From an uncultured Acidimicrobiales bacterium (lineage in GTDB: Bacteria > Actinomycetota > Acidimicrobiia > Acidimicrobiales > Poriferisodalaceae): DNA of 44,006 nucleotides. Location: positions 1-44,006 of the forward strand of contig CAJQGN010000099.1 of the NCBI GenBank assembly GCA_905477545.1, given 5' to 3'. Shown one piece after another: positions 4,212-38,603 of the stretch. Made by a program: the position numbers and the translations under genes. Under the pieces are notes generated by a model. That model searched no databases, had not been told where the DNA came from, and was given only the letters and a program-made list of their open reading frames with translations. Every line of letters starts with the position of its first letter. The first letter of the stretch is position 1.

Positions 4212-5414
4212 ATGCCAACGACAATGCAGCTTAATGAATTACCTGACCAACCGATGCATGATGTGCACCGAATCGAGCACAATGGCGCAGTTGATGCAGA
4301 TGGTCACATTCTTGAGCCACCAGATCTTTGGGAAGAGTATTTAGAAAAGAAATACAAAAAGACCGCACTCAAAATTTGCCTTGATGAAAAGGGGCTCGAA
4401 GAGCTTGAGATCGGCGGCGAAAGAAGCAAGATGAGTCGACGCGGGTTTCCTGCGACTCTGGGAGCCATGGGCGCACCTGATCTCGCAGACATTCAGAACA
4501 ACCCCGATCGCAAGTACATGAATGAGTCTCCCTATGGGTCAATGGACCCATCGCAACGTCTAAAAGTACTTGATGCTGAGAACTTAGATGCTGCTATTTT
4601 GTATACAACAGTCGGCCTTTTGTGGGAAGCCGAATTAACCGACCCAGAGCTTAGCCAGGCCTATACAAGAGCATACAACCGTTGGATCGTTGACTTCTGT
4701 AAAGATGGGGAAGGGAGGCTTATCCCCGCCGCACACTTATCTCTATCAGATCCAGAAGCTGCAGCTCGCGAATTGAGACGCTCGGTCAACGATGGAGCCA
4801 AAGGCTGTTACGTTGCCCCATTCACGCATTCAGCAAAACCATTAGGCCATCCGGATAATCACATCGTTTTTCAGACTGCTCAAGAGCTCGGGGTTCCATT
4901 TGCGATCCACCCAACGTTCGAGCCCCAGTGGACTAAAGGTGGCCGAATGGGAACTTGGGAAAACGTCAAGCAACTCCGCTTGACTGCATCAGTTACTGCC
5001 TCCGATGGCGTCAGACACCAATTCACTACGCTTTTTGATTATGGCGTGTTCGACCTGTATCCCGAACTAAAAGTTCTGGTTTTGGAATCGGGCGGCGGTT
5101 GGATCGGATACTGGCTAGATCGAATAGATGCCGTTTACAGTCACACATTCATCGGCGGTCGGGTCCCCTTGCAAATGAAACCTAGTGAATACTTTATGCG
5201 TCAAATTTGGATTAGCTGTGACCCAGATGAGAGAACAATTCCAGCTCTAGCCGAGCGCTATGGATACGACAGATTCATCTGGGCTTCCGATTTCCCCCAT
5301 GCCGACCACACACCCGAATACGTGCATGATTTAAATGAACTGGTTTCAATGTTTCCCAAAGAACACCGCCGAGGGTTCATCGGCGATAATACTCGTAAAC
5401 TTTTCGACTTTTGA
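4212..5414 (+). CDS. Amidohydrolase (amidohydrolase_2-like) family protein
   Basis: AVDADGHILEPPDLWEEYL (DxDxH..EP.DLW), AIHPTFE, FIWASDFPHADHTPE; GGGGA SD immediately upstream of the ATG. Confidence 0.9.
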   Translation: MPTTMQLNELPDQPMHDVHRIEHNGAVDADGHILEPPDLWEEYLEKKYKKTALKICLDEKGLEELEIGGERSKMSRRGFPATLGAMGAPDLADIQNNPDRKYMNESPYGSMDPSQRLKVLDAENLDAAILYTTVGLLWEAELTDPELSQAYTRAYNRWIVDFCKDGEGRLIPAAHLSLSDPEAAARELRRSVNDGAKGCYVAPFTHSAKPLGHPDNHIVFQTAQELGVPFAIHPTFEPQWTKGGRMGTWENVKQLRLTASVTASDGVRHQFTTLFDYGVFDLYPELKVLVLESGGGWIGYWLDRIDAVYSHTFIGGRVPLQMKPSEYFMRQIWISCDPDERTIPALAERYGYDRFIWASDFPHADHTPEYVHDLNELVSMFPKEHRRGFIGDNTRKLFDF

Positions 5415-5515
5415 TAAACATCCACGATTCAATTTTGAATTTTTTGCAGGTAAGTTCATCAAAATTTGCTGAGCCGGGATAGTTTAAATTCGTTAGACCT
5501 TTCAAGTCTTTGCAT

Positions 5516-6316
5516 TCAACGCTTGTGAACTGGGCGCGGATCAGACAAGTGTCCCAGAGGCGACCGGGCGCGTAGTCCTCCGTCGACAACTATTGATTCA
5601 CCAGTAACGAAAGAAGATTCATCGCTAGCAAGCCAAACTGCTGTATTTGCTATCTCTTCCGGTTGCCCAAGACGCCCGATCGCGTGCGCATTGAGCTGAA
5701 CTTCAAGAACCCCTGGATTTTCCATCATTCTACTAACTGGCGGGGTCTCAATCGTTCCCGGACAAATAGCATTAACTCTGATGCCCTGAGACGCGTGATC
5801 AGTACTCATTGCTCTCGTCAAATTAATAACGGCCGCTTTGCTCGCTGCATACGAGACACTGCTTCCATCCCCGTGCATGCCTGATATCGAAGCAGTGTTA
5901 ATTACTGAGCCACCACCTCTTTTCAGCATTTCAGGAACAGCAAACTTCCCACCAAGAAAAACGGACCTCACGTTGACTGCCATAACCAAATCCCAATCGG
6001 CAACTTCCAGGTCCACTACGTTTCCAGGAAGCAGAGTTCCGGCGTTGTTATACATAACGTCCAGTCCACCGTACTCTTCCACGCACACCCTAATCAGAGA
6101 ACTCACTGAATCCGAGTCAGATACATCAACTTCGATTGCTATGGCATGGCCTCCGTTATCGTTAATTGAGGCGGCTACTTCCTCCGCTTTTCGCTTACGG
6201 ATATCGGCTACGACTACAGCAGCACCTTCGTCAGCGAACCTCTTTGCGCTAGCGGCTCCAATACCGGAGCCGCCTCCAGTGACTATTGAAATTTTATCCT
6301 TCAGTAACATACTCAT
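5516..6316 (-). CDS. SDR family oxidoreductase
   Basis: VTGGGSGIGAASAKRFADEGAAVVVADI, YNNAGTLLPG, YAASKAAVINLTRAM; 266 aa. Confidence 0.92.
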   Translation of the reverse strand: MSMLLKDKISIVTGGGSGIGAASAKRFADEGAAVVVADIRKRKAEEVAASINDNGGHAIAIEVDVSDSDSVSSLIRVCVEEYGGLDVMYNNAGTLLPGNVVDLEVADWDLVMAVNVRSVFLGGKFAVPEMLKRGGGSVINTASISGMHGDGSSVSYAASKAAVINLTRAMSTDHASQGIRVNAICPGTIETPPVSRMMENPGVLEVQLNAHAIGRLGQPEEIANTAVWLASDESSFVTGESIVVDGGLRARSPLGHLSDPRPVHKR

Positions 6317-6395
6317 CCCCTAATTCCCTACATAGAACAACCTACCGGAGCTATCGTTGTTTTTGAGAGCATCATCGAAGACGGAGATTAGATAC

Positions 6396-7280
6396 ATGGC
6401 AAGTGAAGCATTCCACAAAATTCGAGATCTCGTTGCTACTAAACCCATTCCTAGCGAGGTAAAAGCTAATCGAGCTTTCCTTGACGCAGGAGCTCGCCCG
6501 CTCGCAAAGGGAGTTAACGGCACGTTAATTAATGCCAATGAAGTGACGGCGGAGATGCAAATTCCTGAAGGAGCGGTGTCTGACGCAGTCATCCTCTATT
6601 TTCATGGCGGGGGGTATGTAGGCGGATCGATTGCTTCACACCGAAATCTGACTGGAAGTCTAGCTTTAGCTTCTAACTGTAAAGTTCTTTCAGTTGAGTA
6701 TCGATTAGCCCCTGAGAGTCCCCATCCGGCGGCCGTCGAAGATGCCATTAATTCGTACAAATGGCTGCTAAGCGAAGGCTACGATCCGAAGAAAATAGCT
6801 ATTTGTGGTGACTCTGCGGGAGGGGGCTTAGCTATCGCGGTTCAACTCAAGATCCGTGATGAAGGTCTACCGTTGCCTGCTGCATCAGCTCCGATCTCTC
6901 CTTGGATTGATATGGGCCTATCAGGAGACACCATGTCAACGCGCCAATCCAGAGACCCTTTGATTCGGCTTGACTTGATCCGTGAGTTCAAAAGCCAATT
7001 TCTTGGACCAAACAACAACTCCGACGATCCATATGCGTCGCCGCTTCAAGCCGACCTGTTTGGTCTACCGCCCATGCTCATCCATGTTGGAGATGATGAG
7101 ATGCTTCTTTCCGACAGCCAGCGGTTAGCTGAGAAAGCATCAGCGGCAGGAGTCTTAGTAACTCTTGAGGTATGGCCCGAGATGATTCATGTCTGGCATA
7201 CATTCGTCGGTTTGTTTCCAGAGGCTCAGGATGGAATCAACCGAATCGCAGAGTTTCTTTCTGCTCACCTAGAGATCTGA
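6396..7280 (+). CDS. Alpha/beta hydrolase (hormone-sensitive-lipase-like esterase)
   Basis: HGGGYVGGS oxyanion motif, GDSAGGGLA nucleophile elbow, HVWHTF catalytic His region. ATG at 6396 (MASEAFHK) preceded by GGAG; ORF extends to 6357. Confidence 0.9.
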   Translation: MASEAFHKIRDLVATKPIPSEVKANRAFLDAGARPLAKGVNGTLINANEVTAEMQIPEGAVSDAVILYFHGGGYVGGSIASHRNLTGSLALASNCKVLSVEYRLAPESPHPAAVEDAINSYKWLLSEGYDPKKIAICGDSAGGGLAIAVQLKIRDEGLPLPAASAPISPWIDMGLSGDTMSTRQSRDPLIRLDLIREFKSQFLGPNNNSDDPYASPLQADLFGLPPMLIHVGDDEMLLSDSQRLAEKASAAGVLVTLEVWPEMIHVWHTFVGLFPEAQDGINRIAEFLSAHLEI

Positions 7281-7284
7281 ATAG

Positions 7285-9579
7285 TTACTCTGGGGGCTTC
7301 GTGCGCAGAATTTTTTGGATAACCAACTCTTCGTACTCGGTCTCGCTTAGACCCGCTAGATCACAAGCCGCATAGTGGTTATGTTGACCCATGCTGGGAG
7401 CTGCTGAGCGCATAGTGGCCGGAGTTAGCGATAATCGGCAAGCAAACCGAGGCCAGAAATGACTTCCAGCTTGTGGATGGGCTAATTTACTAAAAAATTT
7501 ATTGAAGTCTAAATTTAGGTCTTCCATTACATTTGAGGCGTCATTCACAGCTCCAGCTGGCACCCCTAAACCCTGCAGTTTGAACATCATCTCCTGATCG
7601 TTGTGTCTACTAGTGAGATCTGAGATCTTCTTGTCAAGCTCATCGTGTCGATCCCAACGTTCATCTAGATCAAGATCTTCTAAGTCGTGCCAAGAGGCAT
7701 AGCTACAAAGCGCTCGCCAAGAGAAATCGTCTACGACCGAAATAGCTATCCACCTGTCGTCGCCTGAACATTTGTAAACGCCTTGCGGAGCTCTCCCAGG
7801 GCGTCTATTACCCCACCTTTTTTGCTCACCAAAAAACTGAGATGCTACTAAGTGATGTCCAATCATGTTGATTGCCGTTTCCATTTGGGCAACTTCTATG
7901 GTCTGACCTTGTATCTCAGTTTGTACTTTTCGGTCTAACAAACCAATTACCGCAGCTGCAGCAGCATGCATCCCGGCAATCGGGTCCGGCCATGCGATAC
8001 CATTTTTCCAGGGGCCCTCATCGAAATATCCGGTTAACGCTGTATGTCCAACATGGCCAGCGATTGTAGGACCATACGCAAGCCAATCGCGATTTGGTCC
8101 ATCGCGACCATACCCAGGCATCGTTACATAAACAAGGTCTGGGTTTACGCTATGCAAAAAATTTTCATCAAGTCCGAAAGCTGGCATAACTCGCGGCGCA
8201 TAGTTTTCAATTACAACATCTGATTTAGCGACAAGTTTGGTGAATAACTCACGGCCCTTTTCTTTGTCTATCTCGATAACGGCGGACAACTTATTATTAG
8301 CGTATTTGTTGTGAAACCCACTTCGATTCCAAGGTTCATCGCCAGCTTCATCATCTGGAAAAAAATGCGTATTTTGGACATAGGATTCTGGAACATTCAC
8401 AGGTGTCCTGGTCCATGGGACCTCCGCCATCAGAACTTCAGCCCCTAGGTCCGCTAGTATCCGGGCAGCAAGAGGGCCGGCCCAAACACGCGTCATGTCT
8501 AAAACTCGTATGCCCGTTAATGGCCCATGAGCCAAGTCTTCCAGGGGATCACAGCCATCACCGGATTTACTTAAAACTCTTTTGGGGGCTAACTCCCATT
8601 GATGCTTACTCATCCGGAAAGGCGCTCCAGGTAGGCTCAATCCCTTTCTTGGTTTAGTTTGCCAGAAGTCTCGCTCGGCAAGATGCTCGTCAGCTAAAAG
8701 ATCTTCCATCCCCGACACAGGAGCGACTGGAATGCGCAACGCTTGGAAAAGTTCAATTAACTCATGTCTCTTTTGCTGGAGTAGATAGGGTCTTAAAGCA
8801 CTATCTACTAGCTTCTGATCAGACATTAAGTCAACTATCGATGTAATACCCGATTCGTCAAGCAGTCCTGCAAGACCTGTGACTTCAAGCATTCTTTCCA
8901 TCTGATCAGTTTGCGAAACTGCTAGACCAATCCACCCATCGGAGCACTCATAGGCACCTATTGGAGTTCCAGGGCCGGCGTATCTATTTCCTAAGCGATT
9001 GAGAATACTGCCATTATGGGTATGCCTCAACAATGTAAACTGATGGAGTGCAGCTAGAACTTCTTGATGTGACGTCTCGACTACTTGACCGTGTCCTGTG
9101 CGAGACCGAACATACAATGCAGAAAGCGCTCCTATGAACCCTGTTATGCCCGAGGCTAAATGAACTAAGTCAGGTACTCCGTTTAGAGGCTCTCTTTTCG
9201 GATCACCAGTTAATCGAAGATGTCCACTGACGGCGGCGTCTACCAAATCGGTCGAACGCCAATTACGATATGGTCCCTCTATCCCAAACGGCGAAATTCT
9301 AAGAACAATTTGTCCGGGGTGGTGAGGCTGGAATGGAACTTCTATAGCATCAACAGACGAGGACTGGATAACGATATCAGCATCTGCTAGATGCTCTTTG
9401 TAATCGCTTTCTAAATGTTTAGAAATATCAAAGAAAGCTGCGACGGCAGGTTGGTTGTTACCATCAAGCAGTATTACTTCGCTTCCATAGTCCGCAAAAA
9501 GCTTTGCAGCGTAGGATCCAGCTAGTGAACCGCCCAGTTCCGTTACCTTCACCTCAGCTAATGCTCCAGCGACACTCAA
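7285..9579 (-). CDS. Two-domain (fused) CaiB/BaiF CoA-transferase
   Basis: 764 aa with two CaiB-like modules: N-terminal VTELGGSLAGSYAAKLFADYGSEVILLDG and second ATG-less start LTGIRVLDMTRVWAGPLAARILADLGAEVLMAE, YGRDGPNRDWLAYGPTIAGHVG. Confidence 0.88.
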   Translation of the reverse strand: MSVAGALAEVKVTELGGSLAGSYAAKLFADYGSEVILLDGNNQPAVAAFFDISKHLESDYKEHLADADIVIQSSSVDAIEVPFQPHHPGQIVLRISPFGIEGPYRNWRSTDLVDAAVSGHLRLTGDPKREPLNGVPDLVHLASGITGFIGALSALYVRSRTGHGQVVETSHQEVLAALHQFTLLRHTHNGSILNRLGNRYAGPGTPIGAYECSDGWIGLAVSQTDQMERMLEVTGLAGLLDESGITSIVDLMSDQKLVDSALRPYLLQQKRHELIELFQALRIPVAPVSGMEDLLADEHLAERDFWQTKPRKGLSLPGAPFRMSKHQWELAPKRVLSKSGDGCDPLEDLAHGPLTGIRVLDMTRVWAGPLAARILADLGAEVLMAEVPWTRTPVNVPESYVQNTHFFPDDEAGDEPWNRSGFHNKYANNKLSAVIEIDKEKGRELFTKLVAKSDVVIENYAPRVMPAFGLDENFLHSVNPDLVYVTMPGYGRDGPNRDWLAYGPTIAGHVGHTALTGYFDEGPWKNGIAWPDPIAGMHAAAAAVIGLLDRKVQTEIQGQTIEVAQMETAINMIGHHLVASQFFGEQKRWGNRRPGRAPQGVYKCSGDDRWIAISVVDDFSWRALCSYASWHDLEDLDLDERWDRHDELDKKISDLTSRHNDQEMMFKLQGLGVPAGAVNDASNVMEDLNLDFNKFFSKLAHPQAGSHFWPRFACRLSLTPATMRSAAPSMGQHNHYAACDLAGLSETEYEELVIQKILRTKPPE

Positions 9580-10772
9580 GGAATTACTCCTAAAGATTTA
9601 AGTTCTTCTATCTGATCCCATCCAATTCCAAGTTCCATTAGGACAAGTTCTGTGTCTTGTCCTAACTCCGGTGAAGCCGATGAAACAGTCCATTTAGTCT
9701 TCGAAAAGTCAATTGGTGTGGCGACCATCTCAACGGTTTGACCATCAGGAGTTGGGACTTCTATGAAACAACCAGCAGCTCTGGCCTGAGGATCATTCAA
9801 GACTTCAAGCGTTGACTGCACTGGAGCCCACCAAACATCATTCTGATCAAATATTTTTCCCCACTCCGACCTCGTTTTGCCGGACATCGCTTCATCAATT
9901 TTTCTAGTTAGAAATTCTGCATTTTCTAGTCTATTTTCGATAGTCGAAAACTTCGGTTCGTCGTACCAAACTTCTCTATCAAGCGCCTTCACGACTTGTG
10001 GCCAATGGCGGTCGCCTTCGAGCCCAAGCATCCACAGCCACTCCCCATCGGAACAGCAATAACAATTTATAAGTGGATTCGGTTGACGTAATCTACTTTT
10101 TGCCTCAGTGTCAACGCCCGTGACTGCCGTAACGTTGTGATCCCATCCCAACATGTATGTGCCTAATCGGATTAGGGAGGCTTCTACTAACTGACCTGAC
10201 CCACTTTTTTCTCTATGGAATAAGGCTGCCGATACACCGGCAGCTGCCGACATCCCAGTCATGTGGTCACCCATCCCACCTCGCTGAACCGGTGGTTCTG
10301 AACTACCTGAACTTAGAGCACTTGCAATTCCGGCTCGTGCCCAAAAAGCGCCTATGTCGTATGACTGCCTGTCAGTTTCAGATCCTCGCAACGAGAGCCC
10401 AGTCACGCTCGCGTAAACTAGCCTTGGATACTTAGTAGCAAGAGTTGGATAATCAAGTCCAAGACGTTCTAAACCACCAGGTCGAAAATTGGTAACGAAT
10501 ACGTCGGCTGAACCAAGGAGCGAATGCATGAGTTCCATGCCTCGAGGAGTTTGCAGATCTATGACGACACTTTTCTTTCCACGATTGTCCAGATCAAATG
10601 GCGGATTACCTTGATCCCCGTAGAGCCATTCCATCGACCGGAATGGGTCACCTGCATGCGGTTCAACTTTATATACTTCCGCTCCCCAATCAGCCAGAAT
10701 GCCTCCGCACGCTGGCCCCGCTACCCATAATCCTAATTCGACGACACGTACCCCCGTCATTGGCCCAGGCAT
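9576..10772 (-). CDS. CaiB/BaiF CoA-transferase
   Basis: MTGVRVVELGLWVAGPACGGILADWGAEVYKVEPHAGDPFRS, GMGDHMTGMSAAAGVSAALFHREKSGSGQ; 4-nt overlap with the downstream fused CaiB gene. Confidence 0.93.
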   Translation of the reverse strand: MPGPMTGVRVVELGLWVAGPACGGILADWGAEVYKVEPHAGDPFRSMEWLYGDQGNPPFDLDNRGKKSVVIDLQTPRGMELMHSLLGSADVFVTNFRPGGLERLGLDYPTLATKYPRLVYASVTGLSLRGSETDRQSYDIGAFWARAGIASALSSGSSEPPVQRGGMGDHMTGMSAAAGVSAALFHREKSGSGQLVEASLIRLGTYMLGWDHNVTAVTGVDTEAKSRLRQPNPLINCYCCSDGEWLWMLGLEGDRHWPQVVKALDREVWYDEPKFSTIENRLENAEFLTRKIDEAMSGKTRSEWGKIFDQNDVWWAPVQSTLEVLNDPQARAAGCFIEVPTPDGQTVEMVATPIDFSKTKWTVSSASPELGQDTELVLMELGIGWDQIEELKSLGVIP

Positions 10773-10785
10773 TACGCTACCTTCC

Positions 10786-12138
10786 TTAACATTTACCAGA
10801 TCGTACTAACAACGCTTGGTCGAGGCGACGGTATTTTACCTCATCATTCGAATCTGCGCCCACCAACAGGAATTCTGCTGAAAGTCCGAGAATATTCTCT
10901 TGGACTAATGAATGCCTTCTAGCTGTCTTCTCACTTACTGATTCGTCACCATTTAGGCTTCTTTCTGACGCTGCCTTAATCCACTCCTCGGGTTTACATG
11001 GAACAACTGGAGAATCCGATGAGAAGGTCACTTCCACATCACGTTCTATCAAACTACGGACCGGCCACAGCCACTTGTGTTCCACGCTTGTTAGCTGCTC
11101 TAAGTATTTTTGACCTCGATAAAGCATAAAAGAGGGCTGTGTCGACACGGCAATATTTAGTGTGCCCAATAAATCAAGCTGTTCAGGCATTGCTAGCGAA
11201 CAGTGCTCAATTCTGTCTTTCGCTAACTCCGGGGCCTGGCTATCCGCAAATGCTAAGAGAGCATCGTTCAACGTATCTATATCCATTGAGTGCACAGCTG
11301 TTGGGAATCCACAGATATGGGCTTGTTGAACTAAATGACTTATTGAAGTTTGACCCAAGATGTCAGGCATTACTTTTGCGTGCCCAACAGACAGATTCCT
11401 AAAACGTTTACCATAGAAGAGGCCGTCAAGATTTTCTGCGCCCACCATAGCTACAAGGCTTGGGCTGATCGCTGGATTAAAAAGAGTGTCTAGCAGTTCC
11501 AGTGAATCTATATTGTTTGTATGCGTAGCATCGGTTACCGAAACAACGCCGTCCGCTTCGCACTGCTGAAACATTTTACTCGCAGCGCTTTCAATCTTGT
11601 TCATCGAAAGTCGCGGGACCTTAGAAAGCAAGTCATGCCTCTCTACTAAGATTTCGCTTGAACTATTCGGTACCTTCAGATCCAAGAAAGCAGCCGAGTT
11701 AACAACAGCCACATGGCCAGTACGGTGGTGAAGAACGGTCGGTGTGTGCCCAGTTACTCGATCTAATTCTTCCCGGGTAGGATGACGCCGTTCACGAAGT
11801 AATGCGTCGTCATATCCCCAGGCTCTTAGCCATTCACCATCACTACTTTTCGCTTCATCTAGTGTTTGCATCAACTCCGGTATCGTCTCGCAGAAAGATA
11901 CATCCAACGAACAGAGGCTTGCCAGCACTGACATTACATGAATATGGTCATCTCTATACCCAGGTTGCACCCACTCATTTTCCCCCAATTTAATAGTAGG
12001 AATGTCAGCGGCAACAGTAACGTCCAAGGCTCTAGCGATACCATCAATCAAAAGAATATTTGATGCTTCAGAATTTTGATTACCAAATCTAGTTATCCGA
12101 CCCTCGATCAGGCACGGGCCCTTCAAATTAGATGCCAA
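10786..12138 (-). CDS. Amidohydrolase family protein (YtcJ-like)
   Basis: RDDHIHVMSVLA, LRAWGYDDALLRERRHPTREELDRVTGHTPTVLHHRTGHVAVVNSAA, TFSSDSPVVPCKP; overlaps the upstream acyl-CoA ligase by 11 nt. Confidence 0.85.
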   Translation of the reverse strand: MASNLKGPCLIEGRITRFGNQNSEASNILLIDGIARALDVTVAADIPTIKLGENEWVQPGYRDDHIHVMSVLASLCSLDVSFCETIPELMQTLDEAKSSDGEWLRAWGYDDALLRERRHPTREELDRVTGHTPTVLHHRTGHVAVVNSAAFLDLKVPNSSSEILVERHDLLSKVPRLSMNKIESAASKMFQQCEADGVVSVTDATHTNNIDSLELLDTLFNPAISPSLVAMVGAENLDGLFYGKRFRNLSVGHAKVMPDILGQTSISHLVQQAHICGFPTAVHSMDIDTLNDALLAFADSQAPELAKDRIEHCSLAMPEQLDLLGTLNIAVSTQPSFMLYRGQKYLEQLTSVEHKWLWPVRSLIERDVEVTFSSDSPVVPCKPEEWIKAASERSLNGDESVSEKTARRHSLVQENILGLSAEFLLVGADSNDEVKYRRLDQALLVRSGKC

Positions 12139-13699
12139 GTTCTTCCAACAGAGGTATTAAATCCTTGCGCAAAAGCTTACCCGTGGAAGTACGGGGTAAT
12201 TCATCCATTAAATGAATCGCTTCGGGTCTTTTAAATGGAGCTAACTTGCTTTTCGCGTAATCAACAAGTTCGGCTGCTGTTGTTCCACTGCCAGGCCGAA
12301 CAACGGCAGCGGCCACCACCCTCTCGCCCCATTCTTCGCTCGCAACACCTACGACAGCGCATTCTAGTACCGTAGCGTTTTCATATAGAACAGCTTCTAC
12401 CTCATCAGGAGAAACATTTTCACCTCCCCTGATGATCATGTCTCCAGTTCGACCACCTAAAAAGAGATAGTCATCAACATCTAAATACCCAAGGTCGCCA
12501 GTATGAACCCAACCCTCATTATCAACAGTAATTCGTGTTTTTTCTTCGTTGCCCCAGTATCCGTCCATGGCTCTAAACGTGCGCAACTGGACTTCTCCTA
12601 GAACTTCTAGTTCCACTGGGAGGCCAGCCTCATCTACTATTCTGACTTCGACGTCATCAAGGACTTTTCCAACTGAACTTAATCGTTTAAGTTTTAGAGC
12701 TTTCTCTGATTCGGTTCCGTCGACTCGATGATCATCTGGATCTAGTACCGCTACCGTCGAAGTAGTTTCGGTTTGTCCATAGGCTCCGGCAAATGAAACA
12801 TTTTCTGGAAAGACTGTAATAGCTCGGCGAATCACTGATGGTGGCATCGGAGCGGCACCATAGGTTATTGCGTCCATTCCTTCAAAAGCGGCCATGCTAA
12901 AGTTATCGGCTTCCATAACTCTCGCGAGCATAGTTGGAACCAGAAATGCATGAGTTACAGAATGCTTCTGAACCGTTTCAATCCATGCTGATGCTTCAAA
13001 CTGAGGGAGTAAAACAACAACTCGTCCGCTGTAGAGCGCATTCAGCATCGAAGTTACTCCTGCTATGTGGTACAGCGGCGCAGCTAGCGCCATCCGGCCC
13101 ATATCTTCACCCGATGCTGCATCATTTGAGCCCATTACGTATCCGGTGATAGCACCATTCGTTAATTTAACTCCTTTCGGCATCGACGTTGTTCCACTCG
13201 TATACAGCAGGGCACACAAACCATCAAAATCGACATCTTCCGGAACTGGCAGTTCAAAAGCACCATCTCGAGCTGCAACGTAAGATTCTGCAACGTCAAG
13301 CATAAATACGTGCTCGACGGTTGCTGGTCGATTATCGGCGACAAGCTGTGCATAGCGACTTTCAGTAAACAAGACTTTGACACCACTGTCGGCCATCAAA
13401 TGTGCAGCTTCCTCAGCTCCCGCTCTGAAGTTCATCGGAACGACGGTTGCTCCAACAAACGCTGCACCGAAGATAGCTTCGACGCAAGCAACACTGTTTG
13501 TTGCAAAGATTCCCACTCTGTCCCCTACCTCCACGCCTAGGGATGACAACATTCCAGCTACTTTGCTTGTGTTCTCCAGTAACTCTGCGTACGTAACTTG
13601 TCGGGCAACACCGCCGTCTGTCTCCGTCGAAGTGTCGATAAGAATTACTTGATCTCCAGCTATAGACGCCGGCATAAATAAGAGCATTCCTAAATTCAC
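12128..13699 (-). CDS. Acyl-CoA ligase / AMP-binding protein
   Basis: LLYTSGTTSMPKGVKLTNGA (P-loop), YGQTETT, HTGDLGYLD, RGGENVSPDEVEAVLYENATV, PRTSTGKLLRKDL. The ORF extends to 13915, but the GTG at 13699 (VNLGMLLFMPASIAGD) has a GGGGAG SD at ~5-nt spacing and removes overlap with the divergent gene. Confidence 0.9.
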   Translation of the reverse strand: MNLGMLLFMPASIAGDQVILIDTSTETDGGVARQVTYAELLENTSKVAGMLSSLGVEVGDRVGIFATNSVACVEAIFGAAFVGATVVPMNFRAGAEEAAHLMADSGVKVLFTESRYAQLVADNRPATVEHVFMLDVAESYVAARDGAFELPVPEDVDFDGLCALLYTSGTTSMPKGVKLTNGAITGYVMGSNDAASGEDMGRMALAAPLYHIAGVTSMLNALYSGRVVVLLPQFEASAWIETVQKHSVTHAFLVPTMLARVMEADNFSMAAFEGMDAITYGAAPMPPSVIRRAITVFPENVSFAGAYGQTETTSTVAVLDPDDHRVDGTESEKALKLKRLSSVGKVLDDVEVRIVDEAGLPVELEVLGEVQLRTFRAMDGYWGNEEKTRITVDNEGWVHTGDLGYLDVDDYLFLGGRTGDMIIRGGENVSPDEVEAVLYENATVLECAVVGVASEEWGERVVAAAVVRPGSGTTAAELVDYAKSKLAPFKRPEAIHLMDELPRTSTGKLLRKDLIPLLEELGI

Positions 13700-13801
13700 A
13701 TTAACTCCCCTGTACAGAATCCGAGATGATCCCGATAGCACACTAGGTGCCTTAAACAAATTATCCGACTCTCCTAGCGAATAGAAAGCTAGTCTGCCAT
13801 T

Positions 13802-14425
13802 ATGTCGAAGAATATTGAATTTTGGATAGACCCCCTCTGACCTTGGTGTTGGGTGACAGCCCGTTGGGTTGTCGAAGAAGTAGCTGAGAGAAGAGACCTC
13901 AGTATCACATGGCAACCAATAAGCTTATTATTCAAAAATAATCCGGCTGAGACCAGTTCTTACTATCAAAAATCAACAACGACTCATAAGATGCTCCGAG
14001 TAATGGAATCGGTGCGCTCAGTGGATGGCAATCAGGCTCTGTCGAGCCTTTACTGGGAGTTCGCTTCTCGAATCCATCATGACAAGGACCTAGATTTCGA
14101 TATTGCAGACGCACTGAGTGCTACTGAACTAGACCGATCCCACGCTAAGGCAGCAGATGAAGAACAGTGGGATTCTATTATTAGAGAACGCATGGACGCA
14201 GGCCTCGAGCTCGTCGGAGATGATGTCGGAACGCCAATAATCGCATGGAACAGATCCGACAAAACACGAATAGGTATCTTTGGGCCAGTAATAACTAGAG
14301 TTCCAAAAGGACCTGATGCTTTAAAGCTTTGGGATGCGATGGTTATGCTCGGTGACATCGATGGTTTCTGGGAGTTGAAGAAGACTCGTAATCAGAGTCC
14401 TGAGTTTGGAGAACGACCAAATTGA
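13802..14425 (+). CDS. Selenocysteine-containing DsbA-family protein, Rv2466c-like (mycothiol-dependent nitroreductase-like); in-frame UGA at 13838-13840 read as Sec
   Basis: Upstream in-frame reading: MSKNIEFWIDPL-U-PWCWVTARWVVEEVAERRDLSITW...; the UGA replaces the first Cys of a CPWC active site. The downstream protein matches the Rv2466c-like pattern (SRIHH, GDDVGTPII cis-Pro region, FGPVITRVPKGPDALKLWDAMV, FWELKKTR). A SECIS-like hairpin lies at 13855-13873. Predicted 207 aa with Sec at residue 13. The ORF track only shows 13853-14425. Confidence 0.9.
13855..13873 (+). promoter_or_regulatory. Putative bacterial SECIS element
   Basis: GACAGCCC-GUU-GGGUUGUC: 8 contiguous pairs (one G.U), extendable by U13854.G13874; loop GUU begins with G; 22 nt between the UGA and the loop. 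Confidence 0.82.
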
Positions 14426-15594
14426 CACTTGACATTTTTAACGAACTGAAAGTGATTGATACCGATAGCCACTGGTCCGAACCTTACGACCTCTGGACTA
14501 GCAGGGCTCCTGCTAAGTGGAAAGATCGAGTTCCGCAGATGGCCGAACGAGGAGGAAAGAGAAGATGGTGGTTCGACAAAGATATTCCCATCGGATTGCC
14601 GATTGCCTCTTCTGTTGTTGACACTGAAGGGCGAAAAATTACCGGTACCGCTTTCTTTGACATGGACAATGAGATGGTTCATAGAGCAAGCTTTGAACCG
14701 GAAGCTAGAACTGCGATGCTTGACGTTTTAGGTATCCACGCGCAGATAATGTATCCAAATGTTGCAGGTTTCGGGAATCAGAATTTCCTTAAATCTGCCG
14801 ACAATGAGCTGCGGCTTCTAAGTGTCTCAATATACAACGACGCTTTAGCTGAGTTCCAAGAAGACACTGGCCATCGCGTCTTTGGCATGGCTCTACTGCC
14901 CTGGTGGGATCTAGAAGCGTCAGTAGCAGAAGTCAAGCGAGCTCATAGTAATGGTTTACGAGGTATGGTCACCTGCGCCAACCCCGAGGAAGCGGGTATG
15001 CCTGATATGGCTACCTCCGACTGGAACCCAGTTTGGGAAGTATGTTCAGAATTAAAAATGCCGATAAATTTCCATATCGGTTCGTCTAAGGGGAATCTTG
15101 ATTTTTTTGGGAAGGCACCATGGCCTTCGTTCGGAGCAGAAAGAAAACTGGCCGTCGGATCTGCAAATTTATTTATGGGAAACGCACGAACGGTAGGTAA
15201 TTTAATATATTCGGGTGTTCCTGAACGCTTTCCTGAACTTAAATTTGTTTCAGTTGAAAGCGGTATCGGATGGTTACCATTTTTTCTTGAAGTTTTAGAT
15301 CATCAAATGTACGAAACGGCTCCAAACGAGTTGTCAGAACTTTCAATTCTGCCGTCTGAGTATTTTAAACGACAGTTTTACGGTTGCTTTTGGTTCGAAA
15401 AATCGACCATCAAACCAACAATAGATTTCTTGGGAAATCAGAGCGTAATGTTTGAAACGGACTTCCCTCATCCAACGTGCCTGTATCCCAGAGATGATGA
15501 TTCTCTGCACGCAGCTCTCGAGGGGTTAAGTGATAACGATATACAATCTATTTTTCAAGATAATGCTGCGAACCTATATAACATAGCCATTTAA
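14422..15594 (+). CDS. Amidohydrolase (amidohydrolase_2-like) family protein
   Basis: KVIDTDSHWSEPYDLWTSRAPAKWKDRVPQM, VMFETDFPHPTCLYP; TTG start in a TTGA overlap with the selenoprotein stop; GGAG at about 14408-14411. Confidence 0.88.
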   Translation: MTLDIFNELKVIDTDSHWSEPYDLWTSRAPAKWKDRVPQMAERGGKRRWWFDKDIPIGLPIASSVVDTEGRKITGTAFFDMDNEMVHRASFEPEARTAMLDVLGIHAQIMYPNVAGFGNQNFLKSADNELRLLSVSIYNDALAEFQEDTGHRVFGMALLPWWDLEASVAEVKRAHSNGLRGMVTCANPEEAGMPDMATSDWNPVWEVCSELKMPINFHIGSSKGNLDFFGKAPWPSFGAERKLAVGSANLFMGNARTVGNLIYSGVPERFPELKFVSVESGIGWLPFFLEVLDHQMYETAPNELSELSILPSEYFKRQFYGCFWFEKSTIKPTIDFLGNQSVMFETDFPHPTCLYPRDDDSLHAALEGLSDNDIQSIFQDNAANLYNIAI

Positions 15595-15703
15595 ACTGAA
15601 GATACTTTCCACGAAATATTGTGAGCTTCGCGCCCCTCATTTGACCGTGATTACAACAAAAAGTCGCCTTCTTCGGGACTGCCCACACATAAGTTAACTT
15701 TTT

Positions 15704-16411
15704 CTAGCCGATCTGGAGAGCCAAGCGTCTTTCCAATTCGAGGCCCTGCGCCAAGGACAAATCACCTGCACCACTTACACATCTTTTCAAACGGCTGGTG
15801 AGTGCCAAATCCATGAGCGCTATTCTTTCGGCACAATAAAGTCCATGTTTTTCAAGATTATCCGGCTCTACCACTTCAGAAACCACACCCAAGGATAACG
15901 CTTCATTAGCATCTATGTTTTTTGCAGTCAGAATCAGAGGCAGGGCCTTGTTTGCTCCGATCACTCGCGTAAGACTTTGGGTGCCTCCGGCGGCGGGCAA
16001 CATTCCTAGCTTAGTTTCGGGTAAACCAAGAACGGCATCAGACGCAGCTATTCGGATATCACATAATAACGCCATCTCTAGGCTGGAACCCATAGTAAAT
16101 CCATGGAGTAGAGCAACACTTGGGACTTCTAAACCTAGCAACAGATTCCATGGATCTCGTTCCCAACGAATTCGTCTGGCTTCAGAGATTGAATCAGCAC
16201 TACCAAACTCGGACAAATCAGCTCCTACCCCAAAATGTTTACCTTTACTGCGAAGCACAAAACACTTAATGTCTGGTATATCTCTGACCGCTCGAAAAAT
16301 TTCTATTAAGGAATCTCGCATTTCTAAATCATAAATATTTAATGGTGCGTGACTGATAGTTGCTACTGCTATGCCATTCTCATCGATAGATAACTCCACT
16401 CGTTCCTTCAT
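15704..16411 (-). CDS. Enoyl-CoA hydratase/isomerase family protein
   Basis: FVLRSKGKHFGVGADLSEFG, LLHGFTMGSSLEMALLCDIRIAASDAVLGLPETKLGMLPAAGGTQSLTRVIG; 235 aa. Confidence 0.92.
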   Translation of the reverse strand: MKERVELSIDENGIAVATISHAPLNIYDLEMRDSLIEIFRAVRDIPDIKCFVLRSKGKHFGVGADLSEFGSADSISEARRIRWERDPWNLLLGLEVPSVALLHGFTMGSSLEMALLCDIRIAASDAVLGLPETKLGMLPAAGGTQSLTRVIGANKALPLILTAKNIDANEALSLGVVSEVVEPDNLEKHGLYCAERIALMDLALTSRLKRCVSGAGDLSLAQGLELERRLALQIG

Positions 16412-17373
16412 TTGTTGACCAACGGAACTATAGATTCTTCCAGAGACACTTCTCTATGCTGATCAGCTTCATCTGCTAGTTGCGCAACCGCAATCAAACA
16501 TGCCGATAACCCTGCTATCGGGTCAGGGTATGAATACGCTGGCAAAGCAGGAATCGTTGATGTCCAACCTAAACCTGAAGCTGCATGGACTCCTGTTCCA
16601 TAAGCGACCCAACTCTCTTCCGGGGCACCTGCAGCAAAAGCATTAATAGAAAGCGACCGAACATTTTTGTTAATCAGTGTCAGCTGATCAGCCGTCAACC
16701 CCAGATTAAAGAGCGCTCGTCGTGACATCGACGAAACGACAAGGTCAGATGACTTTACCAGCTGTTCGAAGGCTGCCGATGTAACGCACTTCCTTAGATC
16801 TAAGTTCCAAATTTCTTTAGACTTATTGAGTTCTCGGAACATCGGAGCCTGACCGGTTCCATCATCACCATCACCAAACCTAAGTCCATCCGGGCGCACA
16901 TCAGACTCAATTTTGATTACGCGGGCACCAGCTCTACCAAGGAGTTCAGAGCATAGAGGTCCAGCCCACATAGATGTTAAATCAAGTATTTGTTTTCCCC
17001 TCAAATCGACTTTGCCAGAAATATTTCCAAGATCTAAAGGCTGCACTTTGCGAGCATCCTTACGATATGGAACGACTGGTAGCCGCCAATTTTGCGCTCG
17101 TTTCGCCAACGATTCCGGCTCGGGGTCTGATCCAGCAACACTTAGAAAAGATGTCCATGTCTCTAAATCATCTGGTCCAAGGTCGACACATAGATAACCC
17201 TCACTCCATTTAACTGGCCGCTCCGGACGAGAAGGATTTCCTACTAGAAGTTCGGGAAGATCAAGCCAAAATTCAGTATCACCGGCCACGGGAATTCTTA
17301 GACGAGAGTCTAGAGCCCTTCCAAGTTCTGCACCTAAGCTATGAAGACCTTCAGGGAGCCAACGTTTACTCAT
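16408..17373 (-). CDS. Atypical short CaiB/BaiF CoA-transferase-related protein
   Basis: KVDLRGKQILDLTSMWAGPLCSELLGRAGARVIKIES...YPDPIAGLSACLIAVAQL is CaiB-like but begins about 120 aa into the ORF; the usual C-terminal half is missing. 4-nt overlaps with ECH genes on both sides. Confidence 0.8.
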   Translation of the reverse strand: MSKRWLPEGLHSLGAELGRALDSRLRIPVAGDTEFWLDLPELLVGNPSRPERPVKWSEGYLCVDLGPDDLETWTSFLSVAGSDPEPESLAKRAQNWRLPVVPYRKDARKVQPLDLGNISGKVDLRGKQILDLTSMWAGPLCSELLGRAGARVIKIESDVRPDGLRFGDGDDGTGQAPMFRELNKSKEIWNLDLRKCVTSAAFEQLVKSSDLVVSSMSRRALFNLGLTADQLTLINKNVRSLSINAFAAGAPEESWVAYGTGVHAASGLGWTSTIPALPAYSYPDPIAGLSACLIAVAQLADEADQHREVSLEESIVPLVNK

Positions 17374-18107
17374 CTTCCGGAAAAGTCAGGGGGTCGTTTA
17401 GCAAAAAAAGAACGCAGGCCTTCATCTCGATCCTGAGTGGCAGCTAGCTGATGATTAAGGTCACCCTCCAGACGCAGCCCATCTCGCAGAGGGAGTTCAG
17501 TTCCTCTATGAACGGACTCTTTTGCCATAGCCAAAGCTATTGGGCCCTTATCAAGAAGAAGTGCTAACTGTTCCTTTAACGATTCTTCTGGTGTGTCTGT
17601 CAGTTCATGCAAGATTCCCCAAGAAATAGCTACATCACTGGAAATGTTTTTGCCAAGCAGAAGCATCATAGTTGCGCGACCAGTTCCAATAGCCCTTGGG
17701 AGTCGTTGAGTACCACCCCACATCGGAAGGATGCCCGCCCCTGGGTCAGCGAGTTCAAACGTAGAATTTCGCAGACCAACACGGATGTCACAACACAGGG
17801 CAATCTCTAGACCAACTGAGTAACACTTGCCGCTAAATAGCCCAATAACTGGCACTGGCACAGCTGCTAAGGCTGAAGCTGGGTCGGGGACTATTTTGTC
17901 TCGTCCCAAATCTTTTGCAGCACGTACACAGAAGTCAGTGCCCACCGAACTCACAACAACAATTTTGACGTCTCTGTCCTGAGCTATTTTGGAACAATGA
18001 TCAGAAAATTTAGAGGCCGTAGACCTAGTTAGCTCGCCGCCTGGAATGTCTAACCGGACTATGGCTCCATTTTCCAAACGCGTTACTTTTAAGTCGTCGG
18101 AGGTCAA
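17370..18107 (-). CDS. Enoyl-CoA hydratase/isomerase family protein
   Basis: VVSSVGTDFCVRAAKDLGRD, GLEIALCCDIRVGLRNSTFELADPGAGILPMWGGTQRLPRAIG; 245 aa. Confidence 0.9.
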   Translation of the reverse strand: MTSDDLKVTRLENGAIVRLDIPGGELTRSTASKFSDHCSKIAQDRDVKIVVVSSVGTDFCVRAAKDLGRDKIVPDPASALAAVPVPVIGLFSGKCYSVGLEIALCCDIRVGLRNSTFELADPGAGILPMWGGTQRLPRAIGTGRATMMLLLGKNISSDVAISWGILHELTDTPEESLKEQLALLLDKGPIALAMAKESVHRGTELPLRDGLRLEGDLNHQLAATQDRDEGLRSFFAKRPPDFSGR

Positions 18108-24021: not shown

Positions 24022-24846
24022 ATGGAATCGCGCAGCTATGAGGAAAGACACGCTGATGCTCTGGAGGTCTTCGATGGTTTCATGGCTGGCTCTGTCCCTG
24101 ATCCTGAGAGAGGGGCTCGAGCGATGCGTCGCCGACACGGAGCTTTAGGTAGTTTCGCTTTCGACGTAGTTATGGGTGATGTTTGGGCTCGCCCTCAACT
24201 AAGTCGGCGAGATCGTAGCCTTATAGTGATCAGTGTTTTAGCCACGATAGGGAGCACGGAAGAGCTCTCAGTTCATACAATGATTGGCTTGAACCATGGC
24301 GTACAACGAAGCGAAATTGAAGAAGTCTTACTCCATGTTGCAGCTTACGCAGGCTTTCCAATGGCTATGCAGGCAACCCGAGTAGTCGAAGAACGTTTCC
24401 GAATCATAGATGGTGTTGAGCGTCTGCCCGAACGGAAGCCGAGCGCGTCATTAGGTGATCAGGAACGACGTCTACGAGCCCATGACGTGCGTAAAACGCT
24501 TACGGACGGACGCTGCTCAGAAAATTTAGACGATGACTACAAAAATTTTGTAGATCATTTAGGAGAAGTCGGGGCTATTGCATATAACTGGGCTTTCGGA
24601 GATGTCTGGTCTCGCGATGAGCTTCCTAGACGAGATCGTAGTCTCGTGGTTGTTTCGATTCTGACAGTTCTGAGCCGGATTGATGAACTTGCATTTCATA
24701 TCCCAGCTGCTTTGAATCACGGGCTTTCACGAGTGGAAGTTGAGGAGATAATGGTTCAAATGACTATCTACGGTGGTGTGCCAAAGGCCGTTGAAGGGGT
24801 CCTGGCAATGAAGAAAGCCTATTCTAAAATTGATGCTCGGAGTTAA
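24022..24846 (+). CDS. Tandem CMD/AhpD-fold protein
   Basis: 274 aa with two CMD-like repeats (FDVVMGDVWARPQLSRRDRSLIVISVLATIGSTEELSVHTMIGLNHG and YNWAFGDVWSRDELPRRDRSLVVVSILTVLSRIDELAFHIPAALNHG); strong AGGAGG SD. Confidence 0.88.
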   Translation: MESRSYEERHADALEVFDGFMAGSVPDPERGARAMRRRHGALGSFAFDVVMGDVWARPQLSRRDRSLIVISVLATIGSTEELSVHTMIGLNHGVQRSEIEEVLLHVAAYAGFPMAMQATRVVEERFRIIDGVERLPERKPSASLGDQERRLRAHDVRKTLTDGRCSENLDDDYKNFVDHLGEVGAIAYNWAFGDVWSRDELPRRDRSLVVVSILTVLSRIDELAFHIPAALNHGLSRVEVEEIMVQMTIYGGVPKAVEGVLAMKKAYSKIDARS

Positions 24847-36219: not shown

Positions 36220-37143
36220 TCAAGTTGAGTTTGCTCCACAAATAACTAATGCAACGTTTTCTCGCTCGCTTATTCGGACATTACCAGAGCGCAATGCTGC
36301 AACGCCCAATGCTGCTGCGGGTTCTACTTCGATACCATGCACTTTTCTAAGAACTGCTTGAGCGTTAATTACATCATTGTCTCGGATTAGAACGCTCTCA
36401 GCAGCCACGGAAGTTAGCGCTTCCCACCCACGGGTACCGATACGGCGAGCCCCCAAGGCGTCTGCCGCTATACCAGAAACATCTATGTCTGTAGGTCTTG
36501 ATAGTTTTTTTGCGGCAGCGTAAGTACCGGTACCTTCAGTTTCGACGACAATCAGCCTTTTGCGAGTCCCCCACCATGAAGCGAGGCCACCAGATAGTCC
36601 TCCTCCTCCACAAGCAACTACCACGGTGGTCACTTCCGGGCATTGACTATCTAACTCTAAACCGATCGTTCCGGCGCCGTCTAACACCTCAGCTTGGTCA
36701 TAAGCGTGAACAATAGTCATTGTTCGCTTGGCTGCATAAGTAACTGAAGCTTCGAAGGCTTCAGCATAACTTTCACCGGTTTGATGAATTATCGCTCCAT
36801 GTTGTTCTAATTTTTTTATTTTCGACTCAGAAGTGATAGTCGGAACAAAAATGTTTGCGACATGCCCTAGCTCCTTAGCAGCCCATGCCACTGCAATTCC
36901 ATGGTTGCCTCCTGAAGCCGCAAGGACTCCATCGACACCCACATTTAGTTTCATGAGTGAATACAACGCTCCACGTGCTTTGAAAGAGCCACTATGTTGA
37001 AGATGTTCAAGTTTCAGAATGACCGGGTGGCCGATTCCAATGTCATCTTTAGCGATTTTTAAAATCGGTGTGCGGAGGATTCGGTTAGTAATTACTTTGT
37101 TAGCTAACTTGATTCTTTCTTGAGCATTTACTGGAGGCTCCAT
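36220..37143 (-). CDS. PLP-dependent threonine/serine dehydratase-like protein
   Basis: LKLEHLQHSGSFKARGALYSL (PLP Lys SxKxRGA), ASGGNHGIAVAWAAKELG, VACGGGGLSGGLASW; ATG at 37143 overlaps the hpaB-like stop by 1 nt. Confidence 0.92.
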   Translation of the reverse strand: MEPPVNAQERIKLANKVITNRILRTPILKIAKDDIGIGHPVILKLEHLQHSGSFKARGALYSLMKLNVGVDGVLAASGGNHGIAVAWAAKELGHVANIFVPTITSESKIKKLEQHGAIIHQTGESYAEAFEASVTYAAKRTMTIVHAYDQAEVLDGAGTIGLELDSQCPEVTTVVVACGGGGLSGGLASWWGTRKRLIVVETEGTGTYAAAKKLSRPTDIDVSGIAADALGARRIGTRGWEALTSVAAESVLIRDNDVINAQAVLRKVHGIEVEPAAALGVAALRSGNVRISERENVALVICGANST

Positions 37144-38603
37144 CAAGCGTTCGGCTCACCATCATTGGCTATAAACGCGTTTATCCTGTCTACGTATGGC
37201 TGACGGTCATAGATACCATAAAGTGCTTGTTTCATTCGAACAGGGTCGCCAAAGAAAAATTGTTCATAAAGACCTTGCCTTCCCCCGAAACTGGAAAGGC
37301 TCATATCCCATGCCAAACGAAACAATTTGAGTCGTTCGTCTGAATCTCCATTTTTACCTTGCAAAAACTTTTTTATATCGGCGCTGCCCTCACCCAGGCG
37401 ATCTGCTTCAGTCGGAATCATAATTAATCCGCTAGATGAACAAAGTTGAAGAATTTCAATCAGCCTTCGGTGCACCGCTGGGTAATAATTACGTGCAGCA
37501 TCCAACGGGCCGCGTCCAGGCGTCATGACCCCATAGCGGTTTAATGAAGCAGTTTCTTCTGAGGCTATTTTCAATGCTTTCATAATTTCGAGAGTGACAA
37601 TTACTTCAGCAACCATTTCTTGCACATGCGGATAGTCGCTTGTCCCGATCATATTTATGACAGATTGCAAAGTTCCCAGGATTGCTTCGGTTTTCGCAAT
37701 TTTAAGATTCACGACTTGGTGAGCCATGTGTAAAACAGCGCCCGTTTGGCCGTACGCCTGATTTGCCAAATCGACATCGTCGATTAAGAACACTCTCTCC
37801 CACGGGACCAGCACATCATCAAAAATGACTAGTGCATCCATCTCATCAAATCGAGAACCTAGCGGGTGATCTGCATGACTTCGACCTAAATCCAAGGGCT
37901 CCCGACACTGGAATCGCAAACCTTCGGCAGTGTTCGGTACCGAGAAACCCAACGCGTATGGCTTTAGGTCCGAGCCTCCCTTCAATACCGTAGAGGGGAA
38001 AATTAGTATTTCGTCTGAAAGAGGAAGAGTGGCTAACATCCGAGCGCCGCGCACTATTATTCCTGATGAGGTTTCTTTCACTACGCCGAGAGCGATGTAG
38101 GGGTCGTCAAACTCGTTTACTTGCTTAGATTTATCAATCTGAGGACTCGTTAAGGCGTGAGTGAGAGTTAAATCATTTTCTCTCACGTACTCAAAGTAGT
38201 TCGCTATATTCTCCCCAAATCTAGGTTGTATTTGAGCGAAGTACTCACCGGCAGTTCCAGCTGCCATCACGTTCACATTCATATAATCTGGAGTTCTGCC
38301 CATGTGGCCCAACGAGGCATCTGCCCAGACCTTGTGCATCTCAGATCGTCTACATAAATCCTCTTTGCTTTTTGGTATTACAAAACTACGTCCTACCAAA
38401 TCTCCTGAGGTTGGACTAGTCACTGTCATTTTTTCCACTAATTCAGGAGAATGCTGCATGTCGTACAAAGCAGCGAGGCTATTCACAGCATTTCGAGTGC
38501 TTGGGTGAGTTGTTGGGTCGGTAACGCGTTCTCCATTGATCCAGAGATTCGGAGGGTTTTCACGAAACCGCTGCAGTACTTGCTTCCCGGTTCGTGCTGC
38601 CAT
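37143..38603 (-). CDS. hpaB: 4-hydroxyphenylacetate 3-monooxygenase oxygenase component-like (HpaB family)
   Basis: 486 aa; [93 protein letters not shown] typical of the HpaB/PheA flavin monooxygenase family. Confidence 0.88.

Follow-up and report, generated by a model that had tools for sequence, protein, structure and literature searches.

The window, a 44,006-nt stretch of DNA from an uncultured member of the Acidimicrobiia, contains on its forward strand a reading frame with a single internal stop, a TGA that is directly followed by CCT TGG TGT (Table 1). Reading this TGA as U gives a protein of 207 residues that begins with MSKNIEFWIDPLUPWCWVTARW...; the 190-aa ORF called mechanically in the same frame lacks the first strand and the active site. 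The ATG, the internal TGA, the three codons after it and the GTG of the shorter ORF were all confirmed in the sequence as the original prediction had described them. With C written in place of U, the read-through protein matched PF22234 (Rv2466c-like) over the complete profile (positions 1-180 of 180, E 2.1e-42, 145.8 bits vs a gathering cut-off of 27), and PF01323 (DSBA) was matched as well. Solved chains of the Rv2466c family (4zil, 4nxi, 4wkw and 5xur) aligned with E values of ~1e-39 over residues ~5-203 and thus across U13, and the TGA fell on the first Cys of their DPLCPWCW motif. The active site of the read-through protein is DPLUPWCW, in which U replaces the first Cys of DPxCPWCW and the resolving Cys is present. 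The family match and these alignments bear out the claim that the only stop sits on the catalytic Cys of an Rv2466c-like protein, and Cys homologues, the solved structures among them, align at U13 as anticipated. A search of NCBIfam gave nothing above the family cut-offs for the read-through protein, indicating that NCBIfam has no selenoprotein model for a Sec-containing Rv2466c-like family. An AlphaFold2 model calculated from a two-row alignment had a mean pLDDT of 42 and was set aside.

Table 1. Features at the predicted selenoprotein locus (positions in the window).
Feature	Position	Strand	Evidence
Predicted selenoprotein gene, Sec-containing Rv2466c-like DsbA-fold oxidoreductase, 207 aa	13802..14425	+	ATG start, stop TGA 14423-14425; PF22234, solved chains, 77 TGA-bearing copies
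In-frame UGA, predicted Sec13, nucleophilic Cys position (Cys19 of Rv2466c)	13838..13840	+	TGA in 77/77 UGA-type copies
Resolving Cys16 of the UPWC motif (Cys22 of Rv2466c)	13847..13849	+	C in 77/77 Sec copies
Mechanically called 190-aa ORF, GTG start spurious and overlapping the hairpin start	13853..14425	+	Codon is GTA or CAG in relatives, frame intact
Bacterial SECIS-type hairpin, 8-bp stem 13854-13861 / 13867-13874, loop CGUUG 13862-13866	13854..13874	+	Pairing, covariation, bSECIS rules
Amidohydro_2 gene, called TTG start overlapping the stop of the selenoprotein gene	14422..15594	+	PF04909, E 1.6e-23

Homologues were searched first in 61 relatives and then in two larger samples, one from the class (395 genomes) and one from the phylum (396 genomes). 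Among the 146 sequences classified, 80 had TGA at the codon in question, and after two duplicate loci and a distant sequence (L064) were set aside, 77 remained as the main family. All of these copies, which are distributed across the Acidimicrobiia, carry TGA at the Sec13 codon (77/77, with 0 TAA and 0 TAG), read U-P-W-C and contain one internal stop apiece; in the nearest Cys orthologues, this position is occupied by TGC or TGT. An in-frame stop within an otherwise intact gene could in principle mark a pseudogene or a sequencing error, the TGA having arisen by nonsense mutation or by faulty base calling. Against this stand the recurrence of the same stop codon as the single internal stop in 77 copies, which represent many families within the class, and the purifying selection on both sides of it. 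The TGA at the equivalent codon of a congeneric MAG (L049, Acidimicrobiaceae, 93% identical) also makes a base-calling error very unlikely, and we assign a vanishingly small probability to this explanation. The earlier judgement that recoding is likelier than pseudogenization stands on these observations together with the hairpin and the selenocysteine machinery described below. In the phylum sample (E 1e-36), TGA at the Sec13 codon was present only in copies from Acidimicrobiia. A few other matches from this sample list a TGA, and in the one that was read (L123) it falls outside the Sec13 codon. A scan of genome contigs with a single protein found one relative. A long open frame in genome G042, considered as a fusion with another enzyme, was rejected as it merely runs antisense to the adjacent gene.

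The codons upstream of the UGA show a pN/pS of 0.17, with the D and P of the active-site region invariant and F and W nearly so, indicating that they are translated. This conservation conflicts with translation from GTG 13853, by which a 190-aa protein would be made and the upstream frame would remain untranslated. Such a start corresponds to the mechanical ORF call, and the GTG is kept in 75 of the 77 copies. However, the exceptions are GTA, where the pairing partner changes to T and forms an A-U pair, and CAG, where a G-C pair is formed, so that uncommon start codons appear while the pairing is retained. The product would also lack the catalytic motif, and we consider a start at this GTG very improbable.

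The pairing in question belongs to a hairpin 21 nt past the UGA, UGACAGCC-CGUUG-GGUUGUCG, with a folding energy of -12.5 kcal/mol, in which a possible ninth pair (C13862-G13866) would shrink the loop to GUU. Published rules for bacterial SECIS elements specify a stem of 4-16 bp, a distance of 16-37 nt from the UGA, an energy of -7.5 kcal/mol or lower and a loop with G[G/U] (PMC13188914); 77/77 Sec copies conform to them vs 5/62 Cys homologues. All eight pairs are formed in 76/77 Sec copies and mostly two to five in the Cys homologues. Among 45 distinct sequences, 99.7% of the hairpin cells are paired and nine cells are altered on both sides, a value reached by none of 500 shuffles, and sliding the partner strand destroyed the signal. 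The double-sided changes comprise one pair that occurs as G-C, A-U and U-A and another that switches from G-C to A-U. Because the strong conservation of the peptide VTARWVV also constrains much of the stem, most of the covariation comes from one or two pairs. In the codons that form the stem, synonymous divergence amounts to 0.15 (+5 to +7) and 0.21 (+10 to +11), vs 0.78 in the upstream and 0.70 in the downstream flank. In the 77 copies, the loop Arg codon is always CGT, CGG or AGG, although these genes otherwise encode Arg most often by CGC, and this restriction matches the G[G/U] loop rule. For the window alone, folding compared with shuffles gave a modest z of -1.92 and 7% of synonymous-codon shuffles attained eight pairs, so the case for the hairpin is carried by the comparative evidence. 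A search of the window against Rfam at the gathering cut-off produced no match. The hairpin that had been claimed after the UGA is thus present, with covariation above all shuffles and slid controls, and the UGA homologues with a conserved, covarying hairpin that had been expected were found in large number.

The genome of the host (2.58 Mb in 300 contigs, 93% complete) contains all four components that the original prediction had proposed to look for. A tRNA-Sec scored 65.5 bits, above the Rfam cut-off, with the anticodon TCA according to ARAGORN; selA (396 bits) and selB (274 bits) directly adjoin each other on one contig, and selD scored 355 bits. The latter gene has an in-frame TGA of its own at GAGUACK (L018:471-1532, host contig C176), which we take to be the catalytic position of SelD, so that the host SelD is itself a predicted selenoprotein, bringing the number of such genes in the host genome to two or more. 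In the class sample, selA was detected in 42/44 genomes with the UGA gene vs 215/351 others (Fisher p 1e-6, a value that is not corrected for kinship); the two genomes with the UGA gene in which selA was not detected are both draft MAGs, with a completeness of 68% (G393) and 96% (G341). The machinery also bears on the view that the UGA is decoded as Cys or Trp, by suppression or by an altered code in this lineage, as UGA is reassigned in some bacteria. A tRNA-Sec with a UCA anticodon and selA, selB and selD are present, whereas a changed code is contradicted by the gene itself and many of its relatives, which terminate with TGA. The SECIS-type hairpin, kept in the UGA copies and mostly missing from the Cys copies, is a further argument against such a reading, to which we attach very little probability.

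From these comparisons we regard it as nearly certain that UGA 13838 is recoded to selenocysteine in an Rv2466c-like protein. The frame very probably encodes an Rv2466c-type thiol-disulfide reductase with a Sec nucleophile, in which decoding of the UGA would be directed by SelB and the hairpin. The sequences directly support the conserved UGA, the hairpin, the fold family and the machinery, from which we infer the following course of events. SelA and selenophosphate derived from SelD would give rise to Sec-tRNA-Sec, which SelB would bring to the UGA after recognising the hairpin, and the ribosome would insert Sec and continue to the terminal TGA. In the enzyme, which is probably cytosolic, Sec13 would attack a disulfide, a mixed disulfide or another reducible electrophile as substrate, Cys16 would resolve the bond formed with Sec13, and the enzyme would be regenerated by a low-molecular-weight thiol, probably mycothiol.

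In Rv2466c (Mrx2), Cys19 is the nucleophile and Cys22 the resolving residue; mycothiol serves as the reductant of the protein, which gives protection from oxidative stress (PMC11841060; PMC8280269). By analogy, Sec13 is the putative attacking residue and Cys16 the putative resolving residue of the protein described here. Rv2466c is a mycothiol-dependent reductase and nitroreductase of Mycobacterium tuberculosis and belongs to PF22234; the resemblance consists of the full-length family match, the DPLxPWCW motif, the resolving Cys and the GTP (cis-Pro) region. In contrast to Rv2466c, the protein from the Acidimicrobiia has Sec in place of the Cys19 nucleophile, and its use of mycothiol is presumed from the relationship. 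Mycothiol synthesis in the host is plausible, with an MshC-like protein of 410 bits (curated cut-off 485) and an MshA-like protein of 368 bits (curated cut-off 462.5, next hit 90 bits), both scores lying under the curated cut-offs and well over those of the respective runner-up hits. The second MshC hit, with 275 bits, is taken to be an ordinary cysteinyl-tRNA synthetase. The MshC hits of the host lie on contigs C105 (L179) and C124, and several relatives contain a second MshC-like copy. TGAs in MshC-like copies of some relatives were considered as additional Sec codons; in L174, the one copy with a clear reading, the TGA proved to be the ordinary stop codon. NCgl2339 and NCgl2478 of Corynebacterium glutamicum, members of the DsbA-Mrx1 cluster with a CPFC motif, are likewise reductases in which one residue acts as the nucleophile and another resolves, and NCgl2478 is reduced via the mycothiol pathway (PMC8280269). 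Unlike the Sec13 protein, both are Cys enzymes, and we liken them to it by their description.

In a tree of 116 rows built with a quick method, a single clade (SH-aLRT 99) of 58 U and 6 C rows unites the main UGA copies, and five changes between the U and C states are needed on the tree when the distant L064 is counted. The simplest reading is one gain of Sec followed by several replacements by Cys, with the qualification that the number of changes by itself cannot separate gain from loss. L103 (contig C1 of genome G086), a Cys orthologue placed within the Sec clade, has a perfect SECIS-type hairpin, which fits a change from Sec to Cys and is likely a fossil of it. The nested Cys copies, one of them with an intact leftover hairpin, offer a good naturally occurring set in which catalysis by Sec and by Cys can be compared. 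The distant L064 (contig C126 of genome G040, which bears selA) is a second UGA-bearing Rv2466c-like protein with the motif DPLUPWCY and TGA at the Sec13 codon. It is 28% identical, lies far outside the main clade, has no clean hairpin at the equivalent place and possibly represents a second, independent Sec lineage. The host and some relatives additionally contain a Cys paralogue with the motif DPxCPFAW, which lacks the resolving Cys (L057, host contig C101), and similar loci are L056 and L059.

The statement that DsbA-like selenoproteins with a UxxC motif had been seen in metagenome surveys proved correct. They were reported from the Sargasso Sea in 2005 (PMC1088965) and as 'DsbA 1/2/3' from the GOS data in 2008 (PMC2398784), and a review from 2026 lists a DsbA-like form 1 (UxxC) and a form 2 (DxxUP) (PMC13188914). 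As the class of DsbA-like UxxC selenoproteins was already on record, this type of protein is not as novel as the original prediction had hoped. The survey proteins, compared here by their description only, share with the present protein the DsbA superfamily, in most cases a Sec nucleophile in UxxC, and they come from marine samples; they differ in being filed under PF01323 or COG2761, with no assignment to Rv2466c in the text. The Sec-containing Rv2466c-like family may lie inside these lumped DsbA families, which are known to us by description, and the 'DxxUP' form 2 might be a Sec version of the DPxCPFAW paralogue. Our literature search brought up no report of a Sec-containing Rv2466c, and nothing relevant on selenoproteins or selenocysteine in Acidimicrobiia, judged by titles and abstracts. 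We file the family as a Sec subfamily of Rv2466c-like proteins that extends across the Acidimicrobiia, within the known DsbA-like selenoprotein kind. More tentatively, and with somewhat less than even confidence, we consider that it is an unnamed class-wide subfamily and the first Sec form of the mycothiol-dependent reductase Rv2466c/Mrx2, gained in Acidimicrobiia and several times replaced by Cys. If true, this would join selenocysteine chemistry to mycothiol redox metabolism. The predicted selenoprotein family itself links selenium use in Acidimicrobiia with a redox enzyme whose Cys relative shields M. tuberculosis against oxidative stress and acts as an activator of nitro prodrugs. Because a plain ORF call truncates the gene and drops the active site, members of the family are easily missed or misannotated in Acidimicrobiia genomes.

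The Amidohydro_2 gene that follows the selenoprotein gene adjoins it in 26 loci, which belong to the host's own family, and in none of the loci tested from the wider class. The two genes are possibly co-transcribed, and the neighbour has no part in recoding. Genes for CoA-transferases, an acyl-CoA ligase and enoyl-CoA hydratases surround the locus and suggest a catabolic setting that does not pinpoint the substrate. Positions 4212-17400 and 21384-43442 of the window form a dense catabolic region with CoA-transferases of family III, enoyl-CoA hydratases and two Amidohydro_2 proteins. A protein with two CMD (carboxymuconolactone decarboxylase) stretches, whose called sequence is devoid of a CxxC motif, is encoded at 24022-24846, and an HpaB-type hydroxylase lies within the catabolic region at 37143-38603.
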